Source of the DNA: Nitrospirota bacterium
GTDB taxonomy: Bacteria; Nitrospirota; Thermodesulfovibrionia; UBA6902
Length of the DNA stretch: 36,724 nt
Assembly (NCBI GenBank): GCA_016222905.1
Contig: JACRPZ010000067.1
Coordinates: 1-36,724 of the forward strand
Reading direction: 5' to 3'
Each line of letters opens with the position of its first letter. The first letter of the stretch is position 1. Positions 4,411-27,650 of this stretch are shown here, one piece after another. A model generated the notes under the pieces. It ran no database searches. It saw only the letters and a program-made list of their open reading frames with translations, and was not told the DNA's origin. Made by a program: the position numbers and the translations under genes.

Positions 4411-5043
4411 CTATCTCAGTCCCGGCAATAGCACGGTCAGCCCGCCGGAAATAAACTCAACGGCAATAGCCGCCAGAAGCAGTCCCATGAGACGGGTCGC
4501 GATATTGATAGCTGTCTTGCTCATCACTTTCCTGAGAGGGCCTGCGATATTCAGCGCTACCCAGGTCAGTAAAGCCATCAGAACGCTGATGATGATGAGC
4601 AGCGTAAGATGAAGGACATGGGGCGAGGCGTCCGCGTAGATTATTATGGTCGATATAGCGCCCGGGCCAGCCAGAAGCGGCATAGCGATCGGGACCACTG
4701 CGATGCTGCCTTTCTCTTCGGCTTCCGCCTCTTCTTCTTGGGTCTGCTTTGTCTGCGCGTATCTTGCCTGCATCATCGAGATCGCCATAAGCAGAAGCAG
4801 AATGCCCCCTCCCACCTTGAAAGAGGCTATGCTTATGCCGAAAAAATCAAGCAGCGGTTTGCCGAGCAGCGCTGCCACGATCAGGACTATGACAACGGTT
4901 ACGCTTGCGGTGCGGATGATGCGCCTGCGCTCCCCTGAATCCATAGTGTTCGTCAGGCTGATAAAGATAGGGATGGCCCCGAGCGGGTTCACTATCGCGA
5001 GAAGCGTGGTGAATATCTTTATATAAGCTGTCAAATCAAGCAT
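4411..5043 (-). CDS. MarC-family integral membrane protein
   Basis: This 210-residue protein has six predicted membrane helices and the MarC signature near the N-terminus (AIVNPLGAIPIFISLT), plus PIAMPLLAGPGAIST at the start of the second half, giving the internal repeat typical of the family. An acidic cytoplasmic loop (QEEEAEAEEKGS) separates the halves. MarC proteins sit in the inner membrane; despite the name, a direct role in drug resistance is not supported and their substrate is unknown. The Shine-Dalgarno is weak. The gene is divergent from the dienelactone hydrolase gene, with about 210 bases between the starts. Confidence 0.9.
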   Translation of the reverse strand: MLDLTAYIKIFTTLLAIVNPLGAIPIFISLTNTMDSGERRRIIRTASVTVVIVLIVAALLGKPLLDFFGISIASFKVGGGILLLLMAISMMQARYAQTKQTQEEEAEAEEKGSIAVVPIAMPLLAGPGAISTIIIYADASPHVLHLTLLIIISVLMALLTWVALNIAGPLRKVMSKTAINIATRLMGLLLAAIAVEFISGGLTVLLPGLR

Positions 5044-5173
5044 AATCCAATCTCGTTACGCAAAAAACTTATTAATGTTAATACGTTATACCTGTTAAAG
5101 CAAGTACTTTTAAGGAACTTCGGGGAATGCGCTAAAAGGTGTTAACAGACGCCGGGATGGTTGTAAGTTCAAT

Positions 5174-5202
5174 TTGTCTGCCCGGGCAATTTGTGATACA
5201 CT
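5174..5202 (+). promoter_or_regulatory. possible sigma70 promoter for the hydrolase gene
   Basis: TTGTCT (5174-5179) and TACACT (5197-5202) are separated by 17 bases, each matching four of six consensus positions. The predicted transcript starts about 45 bases before the hydrolase ATG at 5256. A GCCCGGGC palindrome lies inside the spacer. This is a motif-only prediction. Confidence 0.4.
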
Positions 5203-5255
5203 TTTTTATAAGACAGCCTTTTATTCTGTTAAAACAATCCATTAAGGAGGCATGT

Positions 5256-6062
5256 ATGAAAAAGATACTGACATTACTAATTGCCGTGGCACTTGTATTG
5301 GCAATTGCGGGGTCCACTTCGGCGAAGCCGAACATTAAGGGGGAAGAAGTCTCTTACATCTCCGGCACCACCGTGATGAAAGGCTATCTTGCCTATGACA
5401 AGAACATTAAAGGCAAAAGACCCGGCATCCTCGTTGTCCATGAGTGGTGGGGGCATAATGAATACGCCAGGAAGCGTACCCGCATGCTTGCTGAGATGGG
5501 TTATGCCGCTCTTGCGGTCGATATGTATGGAGACGGCAAGCAGGCTAAGCACCCTGACGACGCAGGTAAATTCTCATCTGAGCTAATGAAAAATTTCGAC
5601 ACGGCAAAAGAGAGGTTCACAGCCGCCATGGACTTTCTTAAAAAGCAGGATATGGTCGCTCCCGAAGAGATTGCTGCCATCGGCTATTGCTTTGGGGGCG
5701 GGGTGGTGCTCAATATGGCGCGGCAGGGCGTTGATCTGAAAGGTGTCGCAAGCTTCCACGGCGGTTTCGCCGCAGTGAAGCCGGCCCAGCCGGGCGCGGT
5801 GAAAGCCAAAATCCTCGTGCTGCATGGAGAGGATGATAAGTTCGCCACCACGGAGCAGATCGATGCGTTTAAGAAGGAGATGAAAGATGCAGGGGCCGAT
5901 TTCCGGTTCATAGCTTATCCGGGCGCAATACACAGCTTTACCAATCCTGACGCCGATGCAATTGCGAAGAAATTTAATTTGCCGCTTGGATATAATGCAG
6001 AGGCAGACAAGAAATCTTGGGAGGAACTCGGGAAGTTTCTCGGTCAGATATTCAAAAAGTGA
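5256..6062 (+). CDS. exported dienelactone hydrolase-family protein
   Basis: The start at 5256 is chosen because TTAAGGAGG precedes it and the protein then opens with a textbook signal peptide (MKKILTLLIAVALVLAIAG, cleavage likely after STSA, residue 23). The mature alpha/beta hydrolase has the dienelactone hydrolase triad: the nucleophile Cys145 in GYCFGG, Asp193 or Asp194 in HGEDD, and His226 in GAIHSF, with HEWWG near the oxyanion site. The length (268) fits the family plus signal. It would act in the periplasm on an ester or lactone; the substrate is unknown. It stands alone between oppositely oriented genes. Confidence 0.9.
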   Translation: MKKILTLLIAVALVLAIAGSTSAKPNIKGEEVSYISGTTVMKGYLAYDKNIKGKRPGILVVHEWWGHNEYARKRTRMLAEMGYAALAVDMYGDGKQAKHPDDAGKFSSELMKNFDTAKERFTAAMDFLKKQDMVAPEEIAAIGYCFGGGVVLNMARQGVDLKGVASFHGGFAAVKPAQPGAVKAKILVLHGEDDKFATTEQIDAFKKEMKDAGADFRFIAYPGAIHSFTNPDADAIAKKFNLPLGYNAEADKKSWEELGKFLGQIFKK

Positions 6063-6115: not shown

Positions 6116-6424
6116 TTATGCGGCTGAGCGCTGAAGTTCACGTACCGTTTGAATGGATTCAATATCCTTCTTATAACGCTTCTGTGCCTCTTCAATGTCA
6201 TAAAGCGTCTGGAGGTTCATCCAGAATTCCGCAGGAACATTGAAAAATTTGCCCAGCTTCACTGCGGTTTCTGCTGTAATGCTTCTTTCGCCCTTTAATA
6301 TCTGTCCTATTCTTGTCTGCGAAAGGCCTGTCTCTTTAGCCAAACGATAGACAGATATCCCCATCGGCTCCAGAAATTCCTCTTTAAGCACTTCGCCCGG
6401 ATGTGTATTCTTTAATGTTCTCAT
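6116..6424 (-). CDS. higA: HigA-family antitoxin (XRE HTH)
   Basis: This 102-residue protein opens with HPGEVLKEEFLEPMGIS, the hallmark of HigA antitoxins, followed by a helix-turn-helix (YRLAKETGLSQTRIGQILKG) and the VPAEFWMNLQ segment. The ATG at 6424 is preferred over a TTG further upstream because AGGAG lies seven bases before it. It follows the toxin gene by 14 bases in the toxin-first order typical of higBA. It should neutralise HigB by direct binding and repress the shared promoter. Confidence 0.93.
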   Translation of the reverse strand: MRTLKNTHPGEVLKEEFLEPMGISVYRLAKETGLSQTRIGQILKGERSITAETAVKLGKFFNVPAEFWMNLQTLYDIEEAQKRYKKDIESIQTVRELQRSAA

Positions 6425-6438
6425 AGTGCCTCTCCTTT

Positions 6439-6726
6439 TCAATGATAATCCGTTATTTCAACATCAAGGGCGTTTCCATTTTTCCATTGAAAACAGATAC
6501 GCCATTGATCGTTTATCCTTATGCTCCACTGGCCTTCCCTGTTACCCTTTAACGCCTCAAGCCTGTTGTTAGGAGGAACTCTAAGCGTCTCCAGAGTCGT
6601 TGCTGCAGCAATCATTCTCAATTTTCGCCTCGCCGCATTATGAAGCTGGACAGGCAGCTTAATCTTCTTCGAGAACCGCCCCTTCCATACAAATTCGGTT
6701 TCTTCATCCCTGAATGATGCTATCAT
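6439..6726 (-). CDS. higB: HigB-type mRNA interferase toxin (RelE superfamily)
   Basis: This 95-residue protein has the compact RelE/HigB pattern: LPVQLHNAARRKLRMI near the middle, then RLEALKGNREGQWSIRINDQ and WRICFQW, ending in DVEITDYH. These residues form the central sheet and basic active surface of ribosome-dependent mRNA endonucleases of the HigB type. The gene is first in a two-gene operon with its antitoxin. Its predicted -10 box lies only eight bases from the ATG, so the mRNA is probably leaderless or nearly so, which may keep toxin translation low. Confidence 0.93.
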   Translation of the reverse strand: MIASFRDEETEFVWKGRFSKKIKLPVQLHNAARRKLRMIAAATTLETLRVPPNNRLEALKGNREGQWSIRINDQWRICFQWKNGNALDVEITDYH

Positions 6727-6945: not shown

Positions 6946-7482
6946 TTATAAATAGCCGAGGTTGACCAACCTGTAACTCATGGCTTCTTCGCTGACCTTG
7001 AAATATTTTGCAAGCTCAGATACATATACGATTCCAGATTCCACACATTTCTTAATTAGTTCTGCAGGCATAAGAAGCTCAGCAGCAAAAAAATTAGCTT
7101 CAGTTTCCTGAAGTGATTGAATTTTATCAGCTCTAAAATGGAGCGTGTCTGGTTTTTCGGTAATATCAAAATGCAAGACATCATCAGAATGCAAAATGTG
7201 ATGACCTATCTCATGTGCCACGGTAAATCTTTGTCTCGTCTCTGTATGGGTATTATTTACACCTAAGAATAATTTATCACCCTTTTTGTAAAAAACGCCT
7301 GAAATATCATTAGAAAAAGGATGAGGCTGCATTATGATGTTTCGACATTTTGTGATTTTCTGCAAATCAATAGCCACATGTTTCTTGCGACTAACATCTA
7401 TTGTACTAATGTCAATATTGCATTCTCTGAATAGTCGTTGGACTTTCCTTTTAATTACCGGGAAAGGAATGCGCTCACTCAT
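6946..7482 (-). CDS. ImmA/IrrE-family zinc metallopeptidase
   Basis: This 178-residue protein carries the gluzincin motif HEIGHH (His90-Glu91-His94) and the downstream block ETEANFFAAELLMP, where Glu128 is the expected third zinc ligand. Both are diagnostic of ImmA/IrrE (DUF955). Such peptidases cleave a partner repressor in response to DNA damage or phage signals. The gene overlaps the HTH gene by four bases (ATGA), so the two are co-translated and the HTH protein is the likely substrate. They lie divergent to the ubiquitin-like operon, an arrangement like the CapH/CapP pairs that control some CBASS loci. Control of the neighbouring operon is inferred. Confidence 0.92.
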   Translation of the reverse strand: MSERIPFPVIKRKVQRLFRECNIDISTIDVSRKKHVAIDLQKITKCRNIIMQPHPFSNDISGVFYKKGDKLFLGVNNTHTETRQRFTVAHEIGHHILHSDDVLHFDITEKPDTLHFRADKIQSLQETEANFFAAELLMPAELIKKCVESGIVYVSELAKYFKVSEEAMSYRLVNLGYL

Positions 7483-7841
7483 TTATGGCCTCCTTTTTTT
7501 TCTTCTATAGTTTCTATAAAACTCACAATCTCTTGCTTTTGGTGATTTTTTAGTTGCTTTTGCTGTTCCTTATCCACTTTTTCCACTAAATTTTCTGTTG
7601 AAGCTGAGGCCTTGACTTCATCAATTGTCGGGAGAAAATCCCTTAGGTCTTTTCCAAGGTGGTCTGAAATAAGGTATAAGTCAGAAATATATATCGAGGT
7701 AGTGCCACTTTCATAGTTGGCCAATGAAGCTCGTGACACTTTGATAGCTTCGGCAAGGTTTGTCTGAGATAAACCGGCAGCCTCTCTTCTTTCTTTTATT
7801 CTTTTACCAATTAAGGTATAAACGAGATCTGCATTAATCAT
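7479..7841 (-). CDS. XRE-family HTH repressor, partner of the metallopeptidase
   Basis: This 120-residue protein has a Cro/CI-type helix-turn-helix at about residues 12-65 (AAGLSQTNLAEAIKVSRASL, then NYESG) and a charged, Gln/Lys-rich C-terminal tail that could be the peptidase-sensitive or oligomerisation part. It is first in a two-gene unit with the ImmA/IrrE peptidase. Its promoter places the -10 box seven bases from the ATG with no ribosome binding site, predicting a leaderless mRNA as for lambda cI from PRM. Two dyads between it and the ubiquitin-like operon are candidate operators. It probably represses both directions. Confidence 0.9.
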   Translation of the reverse strand: MINADLVYTLIGKRIKERREAAGLSQTNLAEAIKVSRASLANYESGTTSIYISDLYLISDHLGKDLRDFLPTIDEVKASASTENLVEKVDKEQQKQLKNHQKQEIVSFIETIEEKKGGHK

Positions 7842-7848
7842 CGATTAA

Positions 7849-7877
7849 ATAATACAGTTTTATTAACTTAGAGTCAA
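7849..7877 (-). promoter_or_regulatory. repressor promoter, predicted leaderless
   Basis: On the minus strand TTGACT (7877-7872), 17 bases, TATTAT (7854-7849), then seven bases to the ATG at 7841. Both boxes match five of six consensus bases, which makes this one of the better promoters in the window, and transcription should start at the ATG itself. Confidence 0.65.
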
Positions 7878-7878
7878 C

Positions 7879-7895
7879 AGTTACTTTCGCTAACT
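7879..7895. promoter_or_regulatory. candidate operator (AGTTA-N7-TAACT)
   Basis: A perfect 5-bp inverted repeat with a seven-base centre lies directly upstream of the repressor -35 box. Its 17-bp size suits a dimeric HTH protein. Binding is inferred only from position and symmetry. Confidence 0.35.
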
Positions 7896-7988
7896 TTATT
7901 ATAACTATTTTTATCCTGTCACAGCAATATTAATGTTTATTACTTCGTAAATTATTGAAAAAATACAAGACAATTGTAGTATAATAAT

Positions 7989-8008
7989 ATACATTAAATG
8001 TAATGTAT
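7989..8008. promoter_or_regulatory. candidate operator dyad upstream of the ubiquitin-like operon
   Basis: ATACATTA-AATG-TAATGTAT is a perfect 8-bp inverted repeat, with imperfect AT-rich extension on both sides. It ends seven bases before the TTGACA box of the operon promoter. The position suits repression or activation by the divergent HTH protein. Confidence 0.4.
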
Positions 8009-8015
8009 TATTATA

Positions 8016-8044
8016 TTGACATTTGCATTAAAGTCAGTTAGACT
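8016..8044 (+). promoter_or_regulatory. promoter of the ubiquitin-like operon
   Basis: A perfect TTGACA (8016-8021), a 17-base spacer and TAGACT (8039-8044) predict a start near 8051, about 25 bases before the first gene's GTG, with GAGGAGGA (8061-8067) in the leader. The strong -35 together with an adjacent dyad suggests a tightly repressed but potent promoter. Confidence 0.65.
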
Positions 8045-8075
8045 AAGCTAATTATAAAAGAGGAGGATTACAAAC

Positions 8076-8258
8076 GTGGCGAAAAACAGACCTTATGGTG
8101 ACGGGCAGAGGCAGGGGGCGGTAAGAGACCGTTCTCAAGTATATAACCCTAAAACAGACAACTGGACGAAGCGCAACAACGATGACGGTCGCTTTATGGA
8201 TCAGAAGTCTGACAAGGACCCCTTTAAGGGTGTTCGAAAAGAAAAAGGAGGTAATTAG
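8076..8258 (+). CDS. small basic protein, first gene of ubiquitin-like operon
   Basis: This 60-residue protein starts at GTG, with GAGGAGGA eight bases upstream. It is hydrophilic and probably disordered, with phrases such as NRPYGDGQRQGAVRDRSQ, YNPKT and GRFMDQKSDKDPFKGVRKEK. I recall similar short hypothetical proteins in many bacteria but know of no function. It ends four bases before the ubiquitin-like gene and its last codons supply that gene's AAAGGAGG ribosome binding site, so the two are coupled. The terminal Gly-Gly-Asn is encoded by this Shine-Dalgarno and should not be taken as a ubiquitin-like tail. It could be a substrate, an adaptor or a regulator of the system. Confidence 0.75.
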   Translation: MAKNRPYGDGQRQGAVRDRSQVYNPKTDNWTKRNNDDGRFMDQKSDKDPFKGVRKEKGGN

Positions 8259-8261
8259 GAA

Positions 8262-8552
8262 ATGGAAAAAGACAAGGAGCACAAGGAAGACCACAAGAAT
8301 GAAGCACCCGGACAAAATAAAGAATTTACAATCATTGTGAATGGTCGGGAAAAGGTAGTAACAGGCAAGGAAATATCCTTCAGTCAAGTTGTTGAATTAT
8401 CTTTTGGTACAACCTCAAAGCCAAACACCATTTATACGGTAACCTATAAGAGGGGGGAAGGCAATAAACCCGAAGGCACTATGGTAGATGGTGACATAGT
8501 TAAAATTAAGAATGGGATGATATTCAATGTCACAGCAACCGATAAATCATAG
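8262..8552 (+). CDS. ubiquitin-like protein (Multi_ubiq domain)
   Basis: The protein has 96 residues: a charged, His/Lys/Glu-rich leader of about 20 residues, then one beta-grasp domain with the Multi_ubiq pattern (FTIIVNGREKVVTGKEISF, YTVTYKRGEG, PEGTMVDGDIVKIKNGMIFNV). It carries a single copy, unlike family members with tandem repeats. The C-terminus is TATDKS with no Gly-Gly, so activation would need processing or a different tail chemistry. It overlaps the E1-like gene by 26 bases, strong evidence for a dedicated pair. It is expected to be adenylated by the next gene product and attached to targets, by analogy with bacterial ubiquitin-like systems; the target is unknown. Confidence 0.88.
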   Translation: MEKDKEHKEDHKNEAPGQNKEFTIIVNGREKVVTGKEISFSQVVELSFGTTSKPNTIYTVTYKRGEGNKPEGTMVDGDIVKIKNGMIFNVTATDKS

Positions 8553-9708
8553 TCCTGATTTGAAAAGACTACAAGATGAGGGCTTTGAAGTTGAAATTAG
8601 AGCTGGTTATCTTTTGATAAACGGTGTCCCCTATTTGAACTCCAATAAAGAGATTAAAGCCGGAACACTGGTGTCAGAATTGACTTTGACTGGAAATAAG
8701 ACAACAAAGCCCAATACTCATGTTGTTTTTTTTAAAGGCGATTATCCTTGTCATCGGAATGGGTCTTCAATAGAGCAAATTAGACATAACAGCAATCAGC
8801 AACCACTCACTGATGATCTGGTGATTAATCATTCCTTCTCAAATAAGCCGAGTAATGGATATTCGGATTATTATGAGAAGATGACAAGATATATCGATAT
8901 TATTTCTGCACCTGCCCAATCAGTTGACAGTTCTGTTACAGCAAAAACCTTCAAGGTTATTGAATCCGAGGATGAAGAATCTGTATTCAATTACATTGAT
9001 ACTTCTTCAAGTAGGGCTGGAATTACTATCATAGCCGACAAGTTGAAAATCGGTAAGGTTGGAATAGTCGGTTTGGGCGGTACCGGCTCTTATGTTTTAG
9101 ACCTGGTTGCGAAAACCCCGGTTCAGGAAATTCATCTTTTTGATGGAGACAAGTTTTTCCAACATAACGCGTTTAGATCTCCAGGTGCGCCGTCACTGAA
9201 TGAATTGAAGAAGGCACAATCGAAGGTTGCCTACTTCAGTGAATTATATTCGAAAATGCGTAAGAAGATTATCCCTCATGAATTTTATATAAATTCTTCA
9301 AAGATCGATGTGTTGCGGGTAGTTGATTTTGCCTTCATATGCCTCGACAAAGGAAATGTGAAAGAAATAATTATCGATAAACTGGAAAAATTAGGAATAT
9401 CTTTCATAGATGTAGGAATGGGTGTAGAAATTGTAGATGAAGCGCTGATCGGAATATTGAGGGTTACAACGAGTACCGAGAATAAAAGAGAGCATGTGAA
9501 AGGCAAGAACAGAATCTCTTTTTCAGATGGAGACGGCAATGATGACTATTCTCGGAATATTCAGATAGCTGACCTTAATGCACTCAACGCCGCATTAGCT
9601 GTAATTAAATGGAAAAAATTATTTGGTTTTTATCAGGATTGTGAAAAAGAACACCACAGTACGTATACGCTAAACGTAAACATGTTAACGGGCGACGATC
9701 AGTTATGA
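8527..9708 (+). CDS. ThiF/E1-like enzyme with DUF6791-like N-terminal domain
   Basis: This 393-residue protein has two parts. Residues 1-150 match, from memory, the DUF6791 family (EGFEVEIRAGYLLINGVPY, GTLVSELTL, a conserved-looking YPCH with Cys75, LVINHSFSNKP). Residues 165-393 are a ThiF/MoeB Rossmann adenylation domain with GLGGTG at 182-187, Asp206 and Asp208 of FDGD, and the NAFR block at 214-217. It should adenylate the C-terminus of the ubiquitin-like protein with ATP. The canonical crossover-loop cysteine is not evident: the only cysteines are 75, 272 and 372. Cys75 in the N-terminal domain may be the E2-like transfer site. It overlaps both neighbouring genes. Confidence 0.9.
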   Translation: MSQQPINHSPDLKRLQDEGFEVEIRAGYLLINGVPYLNSNKEIKAGTLVSELTLTGNKTTKPNTHVVFFKGDYPCHRNGSSIEQIRHNSNQQPLTDDLVINHSFSNKPSNGYSDYYEKMTRYIDIISAPAQSVDSSVTAKTFKVIESEDEESVFNYIDTSSSRAGITIIADKLKIGKVGIVGLGGTGSYVLDLVAKTPVQEIHLFDGDKFFQHNAFRSPGAPSLNELKKAQSKVAYFSELYSKMRKKIIPHEFYINSSKIDVLRVVDFAFICLDKGNVKEIIIDKLEKLGISFIDVGMGVEIVDEALIGILRVTTSTENKREHVKGKNRISFSDGDGNDDYSRNIQIADLNALNAALAVIKWKKLFGFYQDCEKEHHSTYTLNVNMLTGDDQL

Positions 9709-10160
9709 AACGAGAAACGGTTCTCAAGCATGAATTTGTAGAATATATTCCGAACCACCTAAAAGAGGGGACGATCTATATTTCAGTCACGTTCGGAACA
9801 GTTGTTCATAAATGTTGTTGCGGGTGTGGAAATGAAGTTATTACTCCACTTTCACCGACAGATTGGAAAGTGACATTTGATGGTGAATCAATTTCACTTT
9901 ATCCTTCGATTGGAAACTGGAATTTCGACTGTAAATCTCATTACTGGATAAAAAATAGTAGGGTTGAATGGGACAAGAAACGGTCAGGAAAAGAAATTAA
10001 TTCTGGGAGACATCAAGACTATTTATATAAAAGTAAATATTACGGTAAAAACAGCCTGTCACCTGATAAAGACATAACGGCAAACGACAGAGCGTCAAAA
10101 AGTGATAAATTAGAAGCTAAAAATAACTTTTGGTCGAGGCTGCGCAGTTGGTGGTGTTAA
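9705..10160 (+). CDS. DUF6527-like Cys-rich protein of the ubiquitin-like operon
   Basis: This 151-residue protein overlaps the E1-like gene by four bases (ATGA). Its core, residues 10-90, contains HKCCCGCGNE (His35, Cys37-39, Cys41) and SIGNWNFDCKSHYWI (Cys76, Ser78, His79), which I recall as the DUF6527 signature; the Cys/His set suggests a metal site or a Cys/Ser-His catalytic centre. The C-terminal 60 residues are Lys/Ser-rich and probably flexible, ending in a Trp/Arg patch. It is a recurrent third partner in Multi_ubiq-ThiF operons. A role as processing peptidase, transfer factor or deconjugase is inference. Confidence 0.8.
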   Translation: MKRETVLKHEFVEYIPNHLKEGTIYISVTFGTVVHKCCCGCGNEVITPLSPTDWKVTFDGESISLYPSIGNWNFDCKSHYWIKNSRVEWDKKRSGKEINSGRHQDYLYKSKYYGKNSLSPDKDITANDRASKSDKLEAKNNFWSRLRSWWC

Positions 10161-10213: not shown

Positions 10214-11035
10214 TCAAAAAAGTCCTATCTGATGCACATGCGGTATCGGAAATACACCGATTATGACCCATGGGTTGGTAGCCCAGCCGTGGAACTGCTG
10301 TGTTGTGCCGAGAAAGAAATGCAAGTCCTTACTCGTGAAATCGGATAAGTACTTATCTTTAACTTTCGCCAATGCCTCGGCTTCGTTTTTGCCGCTCTGT
10401 TTCAGGCAGTTCCAATAAAGTTGCCCTGTTTCCCAGTCTAAAATCTGCATTTCACTGGTCTTGCCATCGGCATCTTCGAAGCGGTAAGAAAAACTGTAGG
10501 GAAGTTTAGTTATTAAGCTGAATGTCTGTCGCCATGAATCCTCTTCGAAGAGTACTCCTTGCTTGGCGCGGTTCCGCATCTCGTCTACTTTGGACTGGTC
10601 CCATTCTCGGTCTTCTGTCTCCCAAATGAAATCCAGAATTCGTGTCGGCTTAAAGACCGCAAGTGACAGAGTGTTTGATTTGGCGCCGTCAATCAAGGGT
10701 TGAAGCCGCGTATATACAGGAGGAGTCTGTAGTATTAGCTTTCTACGCTCTCGCCAGTTATCTTTCGTATCAACATGGCCAACAGGAAACAATTGATTTA
10801 CATCTGCAGGACGGAAAGTCTCCGGTCGCGGATCGCTGGGATTTCTTACTAAATTACATTCAAGCCAATCAAATTTCCGATACTGCTCAGTTTCGCCCAA
10901 CCTGCGGAATGGTACGGGATATAAGCGTATCCATGAACCGTCTTCTCGCACACCGGCTGTGCATACCGTTTCCCCGTATTTCCGTGAAAGAGTTGGATAG
11001 GTTTTGACAGTGACGATGAACCGTTCTTTGTGCAT
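10214..11035 (-). CDS. conserved uncharacterised protein, partner of DUF488 gene
   Basis: This 273-residue protein has no signal or membrane segment. It begins ERFIVTVKTYPTLSRKYGE, then TVCTAGVREDGSWIRLYPVP and WLECNLVR, and has an aromatic C-terminus (HFFLGTTQQFHGWATNPWVI). I do not recognise a named fold; the pattern of an N-terminal beta-rich module with W-x-R-L-Y-P-V-P suggests an OB- or ASCH-like nucleic-acid or nucleotide binding surface, which is only a guess. It starts three bases after the stop of the DUF488 gene, so the two form an operon. Base composition is more GC-rich than the neighbouring ubiquitin-like locus, hinting at separate acquisition. Confidence 0.75.
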   Translation of the reverse strand: MHKERFIVTVKTYPTLSRKYGETVCTAGVREDGSWIRLYPVPFRRLGETEQYRKFDWLECNLVRNPSDPRPETFRPADVNQLFPVGHVDTKDNWRERRKLILQTPPVYTRLQPLIDGAKSNTLSLAVFKPTRILDFIWETEDREWDQSKVDEMRNRAKQGVLFEEDSWRQTFSLITKLPYSFSYRFEDADGKTSEMQILDWETGQLYWNCLKQSGKNEAEALAKVKDKYLSDFTSKDLHFFLGTTQQFHGWATNPWVIIGVFPIPHVHQIGLF

Positions 11036-11038
11036 TTA

Positions 11039-11932
11039 TCACAAATGCCTGGAAGAGTATTTATTTCCGAACTGTTGTTCAAGAGCATCAGCAACGCAGG
11101 TCCTATGGCACTGCTCCGGCAGGCGTTCATAACAGGTAAGCGCCACCCTATCGCCCTTTTCGACCCAGCTATTTATTTTAATCAAAGAGTTTATTTGCCT
11201 TGGCAGACTCTCTCGCGTGTACGTAGCAAACAATGCTTCGTAATCTGCCTGTGTCTTAAGTTCCCGTCTGTATTCGGACGCAATGCCCAATTCAGGAAGG
11301 TGTTCATATCTGATGCCAACACCCTCGCAACCTTTTGACAAGGTATTTTTTGAAAATCCATATTTCCGGCTTAACGGATTCCTGCGCACATCGCATAGAA
11401 GCGTAACCCCGTCTTGCACAAGTGTGTTCAGGTAACTTTCCAATGACCTGCCCTCATACCCTATAGTGCAAAGGCCGGACTCGCTGATTTTCGGACGCGC
11501 TGCATCAATAGCCTCCCTCGCCGTAACCTCACCGGCAAGCACTCGATCGATGATTTCACTGCGAATTGCGTAGTAAGGATAACGCTTGTATGTTTCAGCA
11601 ACAAGGTCATCTCCCCGCAGACCGGAATATCGCCTTGAGAATTCTTCCATAATCAACCTTTTTGAGTTTGTAGCCGTTGTCGATCTTCCTTCCGGTGTCA
11701 ATTGCCATTCCCGATCCTCATCAACAAGCAGCCCCTTGTTAATTAATTTTCGCTTGTCGGCATAGGACGTAAAGGAAAACGCACCATATTTATAAGGAAT
11801 GAATTCATACGCCGGAGACTCCTCAGTTTCATTGCAGTATAGGAGCAGCAACTTCTGGAAATCCATACTCCCAATCTTACCACCGAGCGAATTCACCAGT
11901 GCGAGCAGTAATTTTTGGCGGTCAAAAAGCAT
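11039..11932 (-). CDS. DUF488 protein with SocA-like N-terminal region
   Basis: This 297-residue protein has two parts. Residues 1-75 (DRQKLLLALVNSLGGKIGSMD, FQKLLLLYCNETEE, YEFIPYKYGAFSF) resemble the DUF4065/SocA-like domain found in antitoxins. Residues 150-290 form the DUF488 domain: LCTIGYEGRSLE, LLCDVRRNPLSRKYGFSK, and VALTCYERLPEQCHR with a Cys/His set. DUF488 proteins are uncharacterised but recur in mobile and defence-rich DNA. It is transcribed first, followed by the 10214-11035 gene. The fusion of a SocA-like region to DUF488 suggests substrate recognition plus a catalytic or binding domain. Function unknown. Confidence 0.8.
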   Translation of the reverse strand: MLFDRQKLLLALVNSLGGKIGSMDFQKLLLLYCNETEESPAYEFIPYKYGAFSFTSYADKRKLINKGLLVDEDREWQLTPEGRSTTATNSKRLIMEEFSRRYSGLRGDDLVAETYKRYPYYAIRSEIIDRVLAGEVTAREAIDAARPKISESGLCTIGYEGRSLESYLNTLVQDGVTLLCDVRRNPLSRKYGFSKNTLSKGCEGVGIRYEHLPELGIASEYRRELKTQADYEALFATYTRESLPRQINSLIKINSWVEKGDRVALTCYERLPEQCHRTCVADALEQQFGNKYSSRHL

Positions 11933-26062: not shown

Positions 26063-26950
26063 ATGAAAAGACTCGAATATCAAATCAAATATGGCGATTG
26101 CCTGAACATCCTGCGGGAATATCCAAATAACTTTTTTGACCTGATTATTACTTCTCCGCCGTATGCTGACAGCCGAAAAAATACTTACGGAGGAATCAGT
26201 CCTAATAAATATGTAGAATGGTTTTTGCCTAGAAGTGAAGAGTTGTTGCGTGTCCTTAAACCTACAGGTACATTTATCTTAAATATCAAGGAACGTGTGG
26301 CAAGCGGTGAAAGACATACTTATGTTATAGAGTTAATACTTGAGATGCGGAAACAAGGGTGGTTATGGACCGAAGAATTTATATGGCACAAAAGAAATTG
26401 CTATCCGGGGAAATGGCCCAATAGATTCAGGGATGCATGGGAAAGGTGTTTGCAATTCAATAAGTCAAAAAAGTTTCACATGTATCAGGAAAATGTTAAG
26501 GTCCCAATGGGAGAGTGGGCAAAAACAAGATTGAAGGCTCTCGGCAAAAATGACGTAATACGATTCAATTCCCAAGTCGGTAGCGGATTCGGTAAAAATA
26601 TTGCAAACTGGATCGGCAGAGAATTGGCTTATCCAACCAATGTCCTTCATCTTGCCACTGAAACAAGCAATAAGAATCATAGTGCTACTTTCCCCCGTGC
26701 TCTGCCGGATTGGTTCATTAAACTTTTCACAAAAGAGGGTGACTGGATATTGGACCCCTTTGCAGGCTCTGGGACGACAGGCGAAGTGGCACACCAATTA
26801 GGGAGAAATTCGGTCGGGATTGAGATACAAATGGATTATATAAAATTAGCCGAAGAAAAGTTCAAAGAAGCAGAAATGCTTTTACTTGAGCAAAAGGAGA
26901 AATATGGCAAAAGTAACAAAAGAAAACATAATAAGATTCATAGAGCCTAA
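26063..26950 (+). CDS. type II DNA methyltransferase (N4-cytosine/N6-adenine)
   Basis: This 295-residue protein has motif IV TSPPY (Ser31-Pro-Pro-Tyr34) near the N-terminus and motif I DPFAGSGTTGEVA (from Asp231) near the C-terminus, the beta-class order, with a target-recognition region between containing WKRN-like aromatics and NWIGRELAYPTNVLHLATE. It transfers a methyl group from SAM to an exocyclic amino group in a specific DNA site. It overlaps the endonuclease gene by 47 bases, a typical type II pair. SPPY enzymes can modify either A or C, so the base is not resolved. The start lacks a clear Shine-Dalgarno. Confidence 0.93.
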   Translation: MKRLEYQIKYGDCLNILREYPNNFFDLIITSPPYADSRKNTYGGISPNKYVEWFLPRSEELLRVLKPTGTFILNIKERVASGERHTYVIELILEMRKQGWLWTEEFIWHKRNCYPGKWPNRFRDAWERCLQFNKSKKFHMYQENVKVPMGEWAKTRLKALGKNDVIRFNSQVGSGFGKNIANWIGRELAYPTNVLHLATETSNKNHSATFPRALPDWFIKLFTKEGDWILDPFAGSGTTGEVAHQLGRNSVGIEIQMDYIKLAEEKFKEAEMLLLEQKEKYGKSNKRKHNKIHRA

Positions 26951-27650
26951 TATTCAAACTTTCCATAAGAAAAGATTAGACAATCTGTTAGCGCTTAGGC
27001 TTAAAAAAATTCTAACGAGAAAAAATCCATATTTATTCAAGGCAAAAGCACTTAACACTGCGCACGACCTTGTGAAGACAATCTTAGACGCCCATCTCTC
27101 ATCTCAAGAGGAAGGAATCTTCGGTGGGTTTCTTGAAGAATTCGCCATTTTTATCTGCCGTAGCGTATACGACGGTAAAAAATCTTCTGCTGTGGGAATT
27201 GATCTTGAATTTAATAGGGATCAGACTTATTACATTGTCTCAATAAAATCAGGGCCGAATTGGGGTAACAGCAGACAAGTTTCAAAGATGAAAGATGATT
27301 TTAGAAAAGCAAAAATAATATTGGGTACGAATACATCCGGTACAAAGGCAGTGGCCGTCAATGGTTGTTGCTATGGAAAAAATAATAAGCCTGATAAAGG
27401 TGATTATTTAAAATACTGCGGACAACAATTCTGGGAATTTATTTCAGGCGATGAAAATCTCTATACTGAAATTATCGAACCGTTAGGACGTAAAGCAAAA
27501 GAAAAAAATGAGCAGTTTTCGGAAGAATACGCTAAAGTCATAAATAAATTTACTCTTGAATTTGCTAAGGAATACTGTGCCGCTGATGGCTCAATCTTAT
27601 GGGATAAGCTTGTCAGATTTAATTCCGGCAAAAGAATCAAGAAGAAATGA
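26904..27650 (+). CDS. type II restriction endonuclease (PmeII-like family)
   Basis: The start at 26904 has AAAAGGAG seven bases before it, inside the methyltransferase gene. The 248 residues contain NPYLFKAKALNTAHDLVKTI, LSSQEEGIFGGFLEEFAIFI, and the nuclease core GIDLEF (Asp100) with SIKSGPNWGNSRQ (Lys115), a PD-(D/E)xK variant with Ser113 in place of the acidic residue. I recall this combination from PmeII-family endonucleases, so that name is given with caution. It would cut unmethylated foreign DNA at the site protected by the partner enzyme. Its stop overlaps the Fic gene start. Confidence 0.82.
   Translation: MAKVTKENIIRFIEPNIQTFHKKRLDNLLALRLKKILTRKNPYLFKAKALNTAHDLVKTILDAHLSSQEEGIFGGFLEEFAIFICRSVYDGKKSSAVGIDLEFNRDQTYYIVSIKSGPNWGNSRQVSKMKDDFRKAKIILGTNTSGTKAVAVNGCCYGKNNKPDKGDYLKYCGQQFWEFISGDENLYTEIIEPLGRKAKEKNEQFSEEYAKVINKFTLEFAKEYCAADGSILWDKLVRFNSGKRIKKK

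Follow-up and report, generated by a model that had tools for sequence, protein, structure and literature searches.

Bub systems of bacteria are described as carrying out ubiquitin-type conjugation by way of oxyester intermediates and as possessing a Ser-His protease. Their structures in the Protein Data Bank (PDB) include those of Citrobacter BubA, BubB and BubCD (9ea4, 9ea5, 9ea8, 9eae and 9eav). Operons of a similar design had been sketched in 2006 by Iyer, Burroughs and Aravind, whose type 6e, in the sections of the paper that treat it, comprises a polymeric ubiquitin-like protein (polyUbl), an RWD/E2-like protein, an activating enzyme (E1) of JAB-E1 or X-E1 architecture, and a metal-binding protein Y; a version lacking JAB and carrying a 'domain X' is tabulated there as a footnoted variant, and domain X is described as beta-strand rich and poorly conserved, without being identified in those sections as E2-like (PMC1779556). 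The present analysis concerns a compact operon in a Nitrospirota bacterium (contig JACRPZ010000067.1 of assembly GCA_016222905.1; positions 1 to 36,724, the whole 36,724-nucleotide (nt) stretch being referred to as the window), in which genes for a ubiquitin-like protein (Ubl), an E1 with an N-terminal DUF6791 domain, and a DUF6527 protein follow a small basic gene, PDC-S38 (S38). The operon type is real, widespread and little studied, was already sketched in 2006, and adjoins the recently defined Bub family. It is common, yet its central domains are still named as domains of unknown function (DUFs). On balance, we favor the view that it is a compact, JAB-less relative of the Bub and type 6e conjugation operons, under a DNA-damage switch of the CapH/CapP type.

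A preliminary description of the locus, made from the sequence alone, had listed four open reading frames (ORFs) with overlaps of 26 nt (Ubl/E1) and 4 nt (E1/DUF6527), and a re-check of the window ORFs returned the same genes and overlaps (Table 1). Its family calls (Multi_ubiq, DUF6791-ThiF/E1 and DUF6527) were likewise borne out, with Pfam E-values from 1e-10 to 1e-63; those of the E1 were 6.8e-63 for DUF6791 and 1.8e-10 for ThiF, and NCBIfam assigns this protein to the uncharacterised PRK06153 family (615 bits). The wording 'tightly overlapping' applies to the Ubl/E1 and E1/DUF6527 junctions but not to S38, which is separated from the Ubl gene by a 3-nt gap, with the ribosome-binding site of the Ubl gene lying within the end of S38. 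When species genomes were scanned with the E1 alignment, at least 539 relatives were found, and the best 80 loci were fetched for counts. The Ubl and DUF6527, whose co-occurrence with the E1 had been proposed as a check, each accompanied it in 79 of these 80 loci, and the sole locus without a Ubl lies on a contig that starts inside the E1 gene. The Ubl/E1 overlap was exactly 26 nt in all 79 testable loci. Loci of this type are spread over many bacterial phyla and occur in 114 plasmid records, and DUF6791 was present in 6 of 296 genomes sampled from the phylum Nitrospirota; the closest of the best 80 loci is in a metagenome-assembled genome labelled 'Nitrospira japonica' (L063, DYJL01000001.1). 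A scan of viral contigs with the E1 found no relatives. Ubl-E1-DUF6527 is a widespread, portable unit, made up of the last three genes of the operon, while S38, although part of the transcription unit in the window, lies outside the conserved system. Two loci carry a deaminase of about 650 amino acids (aa) between the E1 and DUF6527 genes (L118, 2443-4407, and L130, 7172-9232; PADLOC dCTPase, E ~1e-121), which is a defence context, and an ORF in the same position of L132 (7186-9144) resembles it by eye.

A second operon type, which occurs in this phylum as well as on plasmids, Synechocystis pSYSX and one of Citrobacter koseri among them, consists of a Ubl (often fused to, or followed by, Prok-E2_E), a JAB-E1 and usually DUF6527. 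Of its proteins, a JAB-E1 matched the PDB entry 'Citrobacter BubCD' (E=7e-81) and an E2 matched 'BubB' (E=4e-20). In the genome of the window, the only match to Prok-JAB was on another contig.

The E1 of the window operon is related to BubC. The alignment used for its model held 67 sequences (two plasmid-record rows were left out), and the adenylation motif is intact, with G182, G184, G185, G187, D206, N214, R217, K233 and D274 invariant. The adenylation fold expected at 8527-9708 is present in the AlphaFold2 model (mean predicted local distance difference test, pLDDT, 89.6), for which the best Foldseek match was Citrobacter BubCD (E=1.2e-13), with MccB, a single-enzyme relative, among the next best. 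BubCD was also the first match of the E1 sequence profile, with a profile-profile (hhalign) probability of 99%, and the kinship in sequence is confined to the adenylation domain. The preliminary description had pointed to Bil and Cap2 as relatives; it was right to place the operon among little-characterised kin of phage-defence conjugation systems, but by E1 profile and fold the nearest is Bub. According to its title, PDB entry 9eav holds the Y370F mutant of BubCD in a complex with Ubl and E2. By numbering, with the JAB Asp D104 setting the offset, Y370 is the Tyr of an R-G-Y motif that is invariant in 16 of 16 JAB-E1s. Y341, invariant in the E1 family of the window, sits in the same loop ahead of the same helix and is a candidate counterpart.

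The window Ubl, which has a solved structural relative (9cd2, E=4e-14), ends in FNVTATDKS-COOH. The Ubls of the best 80 loci range from about 80 to more than 300 aa, that is, from one to several domains, and a C-terminal Ser was found in all 79 that could be tested. Its codon was TCG in 40, TCA in 25, TCT in 13 and TCC in 1, and each such change alters residue 8 of the overlapping E1 (R, H, L or P) while leaving the Ser unchanged; because all four TCN codons are used while the E1 residue varies, the Ser itself appears to be selected. JAB-type Ubls such as those of L143 and L145 extend past a Gly (e.g., TTEGGSHEA), and a bare tail with nothing beyond the Ser is in line with the lack of a JAB peptidase. 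A terminus of Ser rather than Gly-Gly would also suit an operon that conjugates no protein at all, either because the Ubl carries sulfur or another small group, or because the E1 modifies the Ubl C-terminus and thereby controls the assembly of Ubl filaments. ThiF and MccB, both structural relatives, do such chemistry, and bacterial Ubls of related operons reportedly oligomerise, to go by the title of a 2025 study by Gong et al. We nevertheless consider this quite improbable, as no recurrence of cofactor-pathway genes was noticed next to the operon, the closest E1 was crystallised with its Ubl and E2 (9eae, 9eav), and related Ubls share operons with E2s.

The principal new inference concerns the E2. 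That the locus has no separate E2, as first described, is correct at the level of genes: Prok-E2_E was found neither among the 2948 ORFs of the 80 loci nor in the 100%-complete genome of the window, the same search being positive in seven relatives. Prok-E2_A, Prok-E2_B and UQ_con were also absent from the genome, which carries little weight, since these searches were negative in every control genome too. However, an E2 is probably present as a domain, DUF6791. Its AlphaFold2 model runs from a helix through four strands, a loop with the invariant C75, and two more strands to a long helix, matching the succession of elements anticipated in a UBC/RWD domain. An earlier hhalign comparison with six E2s gave a partial alignment (P=0.0045) and was rerun with 16 Prok-E2_E sequences and controls, whereupon residues 1-134 aligned with template positions 1-128, full-length and colinear, at a score of 21.8. 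Shuffling the columns 100 times gave a mean of 12.3 (standard deviation 2.2, maximum 19.6), the reversed profile scored 11.7, and two ThiF segments scored 10.7 and 10.8. The alignment sets F-S105-x-K of DUF6791 against the W-S-R-H motif of the E2s. In addition, where the E1 of an E2-bearing locus was read, it was a JAB-E1 in place of the DUF6791-E1. Taken together, the E2-like predicted topology, an alignment scoring above every one of the 100 shuffles, and the fact that DUF6791 and a separate E2 exclude each other suggest that the E1 probably carries a fused, diverged E2 domain in the form of DUF6791, a new idea that can be tested.

It could instead be that DUF6791 is not an E2, and that activation and transfer of the Ubl are both the work of the E1 alone, the transfer being either direct or by way of DUF6527 as an E2/E3-like acceptor. 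The lack of any E2 in the 80 loci, or of Prok-E2_E in the genome, is compatible with this, as are the modest statistics of the DUF6791/E2 match, the appearance of the single enzyme MccB among the structural matches, and the near-obligate partnership of DUF6527, with its invariant Cys, Ser and His. We regard it as unlikely, since DUF6527 also occurs in operons with a genuine E2 and JAB, and so is no simple E2 replacement, and the topology and full-length colinear alignment of DUF6791 favor an E2. Somewhat short of an even chance, in our estimation, is the fuller proposal that DUF6791-ThiF is a single-chain E2-E1 that passes on an unprocessed, Ser-ended Ubl via Tyr/Ser or a lone Cys, in replacement of the usual E1/E2 cysteine pair, within operons of many phyla that lack a recognisable deubiquitinase. 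Were DUF6791 an E2, the system would be biochemically complete with two proteins and, with DUF6527 counted in, would rank among the most compact of all complete machines for ubiquitin-type conjugation, likely serving a stress- or phage-induced protein-tagging pathway; it would also offer a simple model for the fusion and separation of E1, E2 and Ubl modules in evolution. The bare Ser tail, C75, S105 and Y341 are direct handles for testing.

DUF6527 likely binds zinc through Cys/His residues. In its alignment, the two operon types share the invariant residues P16, Y25, C41, W54, P67, S68, C76 and H79, and S68 and H79 are a possible catalytic pair. Its core was modelled with a pLDDT of 87, but the model matched no PDB fold at E≤0.001 (best 0.13), nor did its sequence profile match any PDB entry. 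Since it is present in both operon types, an action on conjugates is more probable than the replacement of an E2. A single match to viral models (E=4e-13, 50% identity over 86 columns) was rejected as a functional clue, as it is apparently a virus-borne DUF6527.

The best indication of the conditions under which the operon is expressed was absent from the preliminary description. A pair of CapH- and CapP-like genes (6946-7841), overlapping each other by 4 nt, is divergent from the operon and probably controls its expression. The locus shows the combination of a divergent helix-turn-helix (HTH) repressor and an M78 peptidase adjoining an immune-type operon. The best -35/-10 pair (8016-8044) adjoins A/T-rich inverted repeats. 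Where enough flanking sequence was available, 52 of 68 loci had a regulator upstream (49 M78, 3 WYL), which agrees with the published figures of DUF955 neighbors at 70% of Multi_ubiq loci (PMC4963859), and of CapW or CapH+CapP at 219 of 544 Bub operons (PMC13373217). In the former study, these COG2856/DUF955 pairs were interpreted as toxin-antitoxin modules, and the HTH and M78 genes of the window might accordingly be a selfish pair carrying the Ubl genes as cargo and stabilising them, the arrangement put forward for Synechocystis pSYSX; the many copies on plasmids would be in keeping with this. Such an arrangement seems very unlikely to us, as the same slot may hold WYL repressors (L002, L071, L085, L093) or a CapK/CapS-like pair (L122), which are regulators and not toxins, and CapH+CapP has been described as a switch of adjacent immune operons that is triggered by single-stranded DNA (ssDNA) (PMC13373217).

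Under the favored reading, a JAB-less Bub relative with a damage switch, DNA damage or phage infection would generate ssDNA, the M78 peptidase would cleave the HTH repressor, and the operon would be transcribed. As the conserved Ser at the end of the Ubl is already free, the protein would not have to be processed. The ThiF domain would adenylate the Ubl C-terminus, and the Ubl would then pass, probably via Y341 of the E1 crossover loop, to the fused DUF6791, with S105 or C75 as candidate acceptor, and finally to a target. The DUF6527 protein, which the JAB-containing operons also have, would most likely edit, remove or direct the conjugates. Several observations weigh against this scheme. The profile match between DUF6791 and E2 is weak when taken alone (hhalign probability 6%, pairwise P 0.006), and both families are shallow, with an effective number of sequences of about 3 and 4. 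C75 is missing from known E2s, so that either C75 or S105 may be the acceptor. In addition, hhalign pairs Y341 with a neighboring Tyr rather than Y370, in a loop that is about 5 residues shorter. The CapP-like protein matches PADLOC capP (E=1.7e-29) over only 135 of 242 positions, and no report of phage defence, a target or a conjugate for this operon type was found in the literature consulted.

Table 1. Features of the operon and its divergent regulatory genes, in window coordinates.
Feature	Position	Strand	Basis and remarks
CapP-like M78/ImmA zinc peptidase	6946..7482	-	178 aa, HEIGHH motif; Pfam Peptidase_M78 E=9.7e-25
CapH-like HTH repressor	7479..7841	-	120 aa; HTH_3 E=3.1e-13; PADLOC capH E=1.2e-9
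A/T-rich inverted repeats between divergent genes, possible operator	7981..8011	.	repeat search
Best sigma-70-like promoter, TTGACA-17-TAGACT	8016..8044	+	consensus scan 10/12; not evidence of function
PDC-S38	8076..8258	+	60 aa, basic; PADLOC PDC-S38 E=2.7e-32, 57/57 positions
Ubl, one Multi_ubiq beta-grasp domain	8262..8552	+	96 aa; Pfam PF14452 E=2.7e-18
E1, DUF6791 + ThiF adenylation domain, proposed E2-E1 fusion	8527..9708	+	393 aa; Pfam
DUF6791 domain, proposed diverged E2	8554..9003	+	aligned with Prok-E2_E profile
C75 codon, DUF6791	8749-8751	+	invariant across alignment
S105 codon, DUF6791	8839-8841	+	invariant across alignment
Y341 codon, E1 crossover loop	9547..9549	+	invariant Tyr; candidate counterpart of Bub E1 Y370, exact loop pairing uncertain
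DUF6527, Cys/His, probably zinc-binding	9705..10160	+	151 aa; Pfam PF20137 E=1.1e-25; invariant C41, S68, C76, H79

The first gene, S38, begins with GTG behind a good Shine-Dalgarno sequence. It had been counted with the other three as one unit, which holds for Ubl, E1 and DUF6527, but S38 itself was present in only 5 of the 80 loci and mostly occurs elsewhere, beside DNA-damage regulators. Among defence and general libraries it matched only PADLOC PDC-S38, plus one PHROG of unknown function, and in the phylum sample 19 of the 296 genomes had S38 and 6 had DUF6791. Of 30 S38 loci examined, 20 had a regulator of DNA-damage type no more than 1 kb upstream, with four kinds represented (M78, WYL, LexA-like and CapK/CapS-like); the figure is indicative only, the set being partly selected for Ubl neighbors. 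Besides the window, S38 contexts were L042, L045-L048, L122, L160, L161, L163 and L164; downstream of S38 are CD-NTase, ThiF (Cap2-like) and Mov34/JAB (Cap3-like) genes in L164, a SAVED/CD-NTase operon in L160, restriction-modification genes in L047 and L048, and a JAB-type Ubl operon (Ubl-E2 fusion and JAB-E1) in L042. When L042 (4814-5640) is set against the window (8076-8300), its S38 is 85% identical to that of the window, and the next genes start almost alike (MEKDKGHKEDH against MEKDKEHKEDH). A shared S38 and a near-identical next-gene start ahead of a different Ubl cassette suggest cassette exchange behind one control region. S38 is a modular accessory and not a core part; a role as core component or substitute E2 is ruled out by its rarity in the 80 loci and its occurrence with unrelated systems. 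It flags immune operons of various kinds that are under DNA-damage control, which points to a shared accessory step.

Other observations on S38 may be recorded here. A similarity to PDB kelch-repeat proteins was short, with no stretch passing alone, and was judged to be chance, and a search of E. coli genomes with S38 DNA gave no match. In L044 (1754-3400), S38 is in frame with a DNA methyltransferase-like protein, and this fusion adjoins an MvaI/BcnI-like restriction enzyme gene and CapK/S-like neighbors. The first-gene slot of the Bub-type operon in L145 (5488-5712) holds DUF2188 (PADLOC PDC-S16) and not S38, while the two are adjacent on Clavibacter pCM2 (L008). Homologues of S38 occur in phages of Staphylococcus, Streptococcus and Microcystis (KY389063, MK448814 and 14 more records), with the phi575 copy located in its early region, at a distance of a few kb from the cI-like repressor.

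The block containing the operon is A/T-rich (34-40% GC at 7000-9500 versus about 48% at 4500-6000), which fits an acquired island. Directly 3' of the operon, on the minus strand (10214-11932), is a PDC-M19A/M19B pair (a DUF488 protein and its partner), a candidate defence system. By sequence appearance, a HigBA-like toxin-antitoxin pair is located at 6116-6726 (minus strand), and further away (26063-27650) a DNA methyltransferase gene is followed by that of a likely restriction endonuclease.

Among known systems, Bil shares with the window operon a Ubl, an E1 and a phage-defence context. In Bil, the E2 and the JAB are encoded by genes of their own, and the PADLOC models of Bil components matched none of the genes of the window operon. 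The Cap2 protein of type II CBASS (cyclic oligonucleotide-based antiphage signalling system) has, in one chain, the order proposed here, an N-terminal E2-like domain followed by an E1 adenylation domain (review PMC12355090). Cap2, however, has a CD-NTase as substrate and a Cap3/JAB partner, whereas the window operon has a beta-grasp Ubl and no Cap3/JAB; the similarity of the window E1 to Cap2 is limited to the ThiF core (PADLOC E1-E2 5e-7), and no CD-NTase model matched the neighboring window genes scanned with PADLOC. Of the characterised systems, Bub is the closest, sharing a Multi_ubiq Ubl (BubA), the BubC-type adenylation domain, a downstream DUF6527, and a regulator of the CapW or CapH+CapP type. 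It differs in having a separate E2 (BubB) and a JAB domain (BubD) on the E1, where the window operon has DUF6791, and in its Ubl tail (...TTEGGSHEA in L145), as against the bare ...TDKS and the 26-nt Ubl/E1 overlap of the window type. Because it lacks these two Bub features, the separate E2 and the JAB, the operon is not classed as Bub. The X-E1 variant of type 6e, as far as the sections on that type describe it, fits in having domain X in place of JAB, a solo-Ubl exception, and a Cys/His metal-binding protein Y. The RWD/E2-like protein of type 6e, as set out in those sections, has no separate gene in loci of the window type; domain X would correspond to DUF6791, and DUF6791 may itself be that protein.

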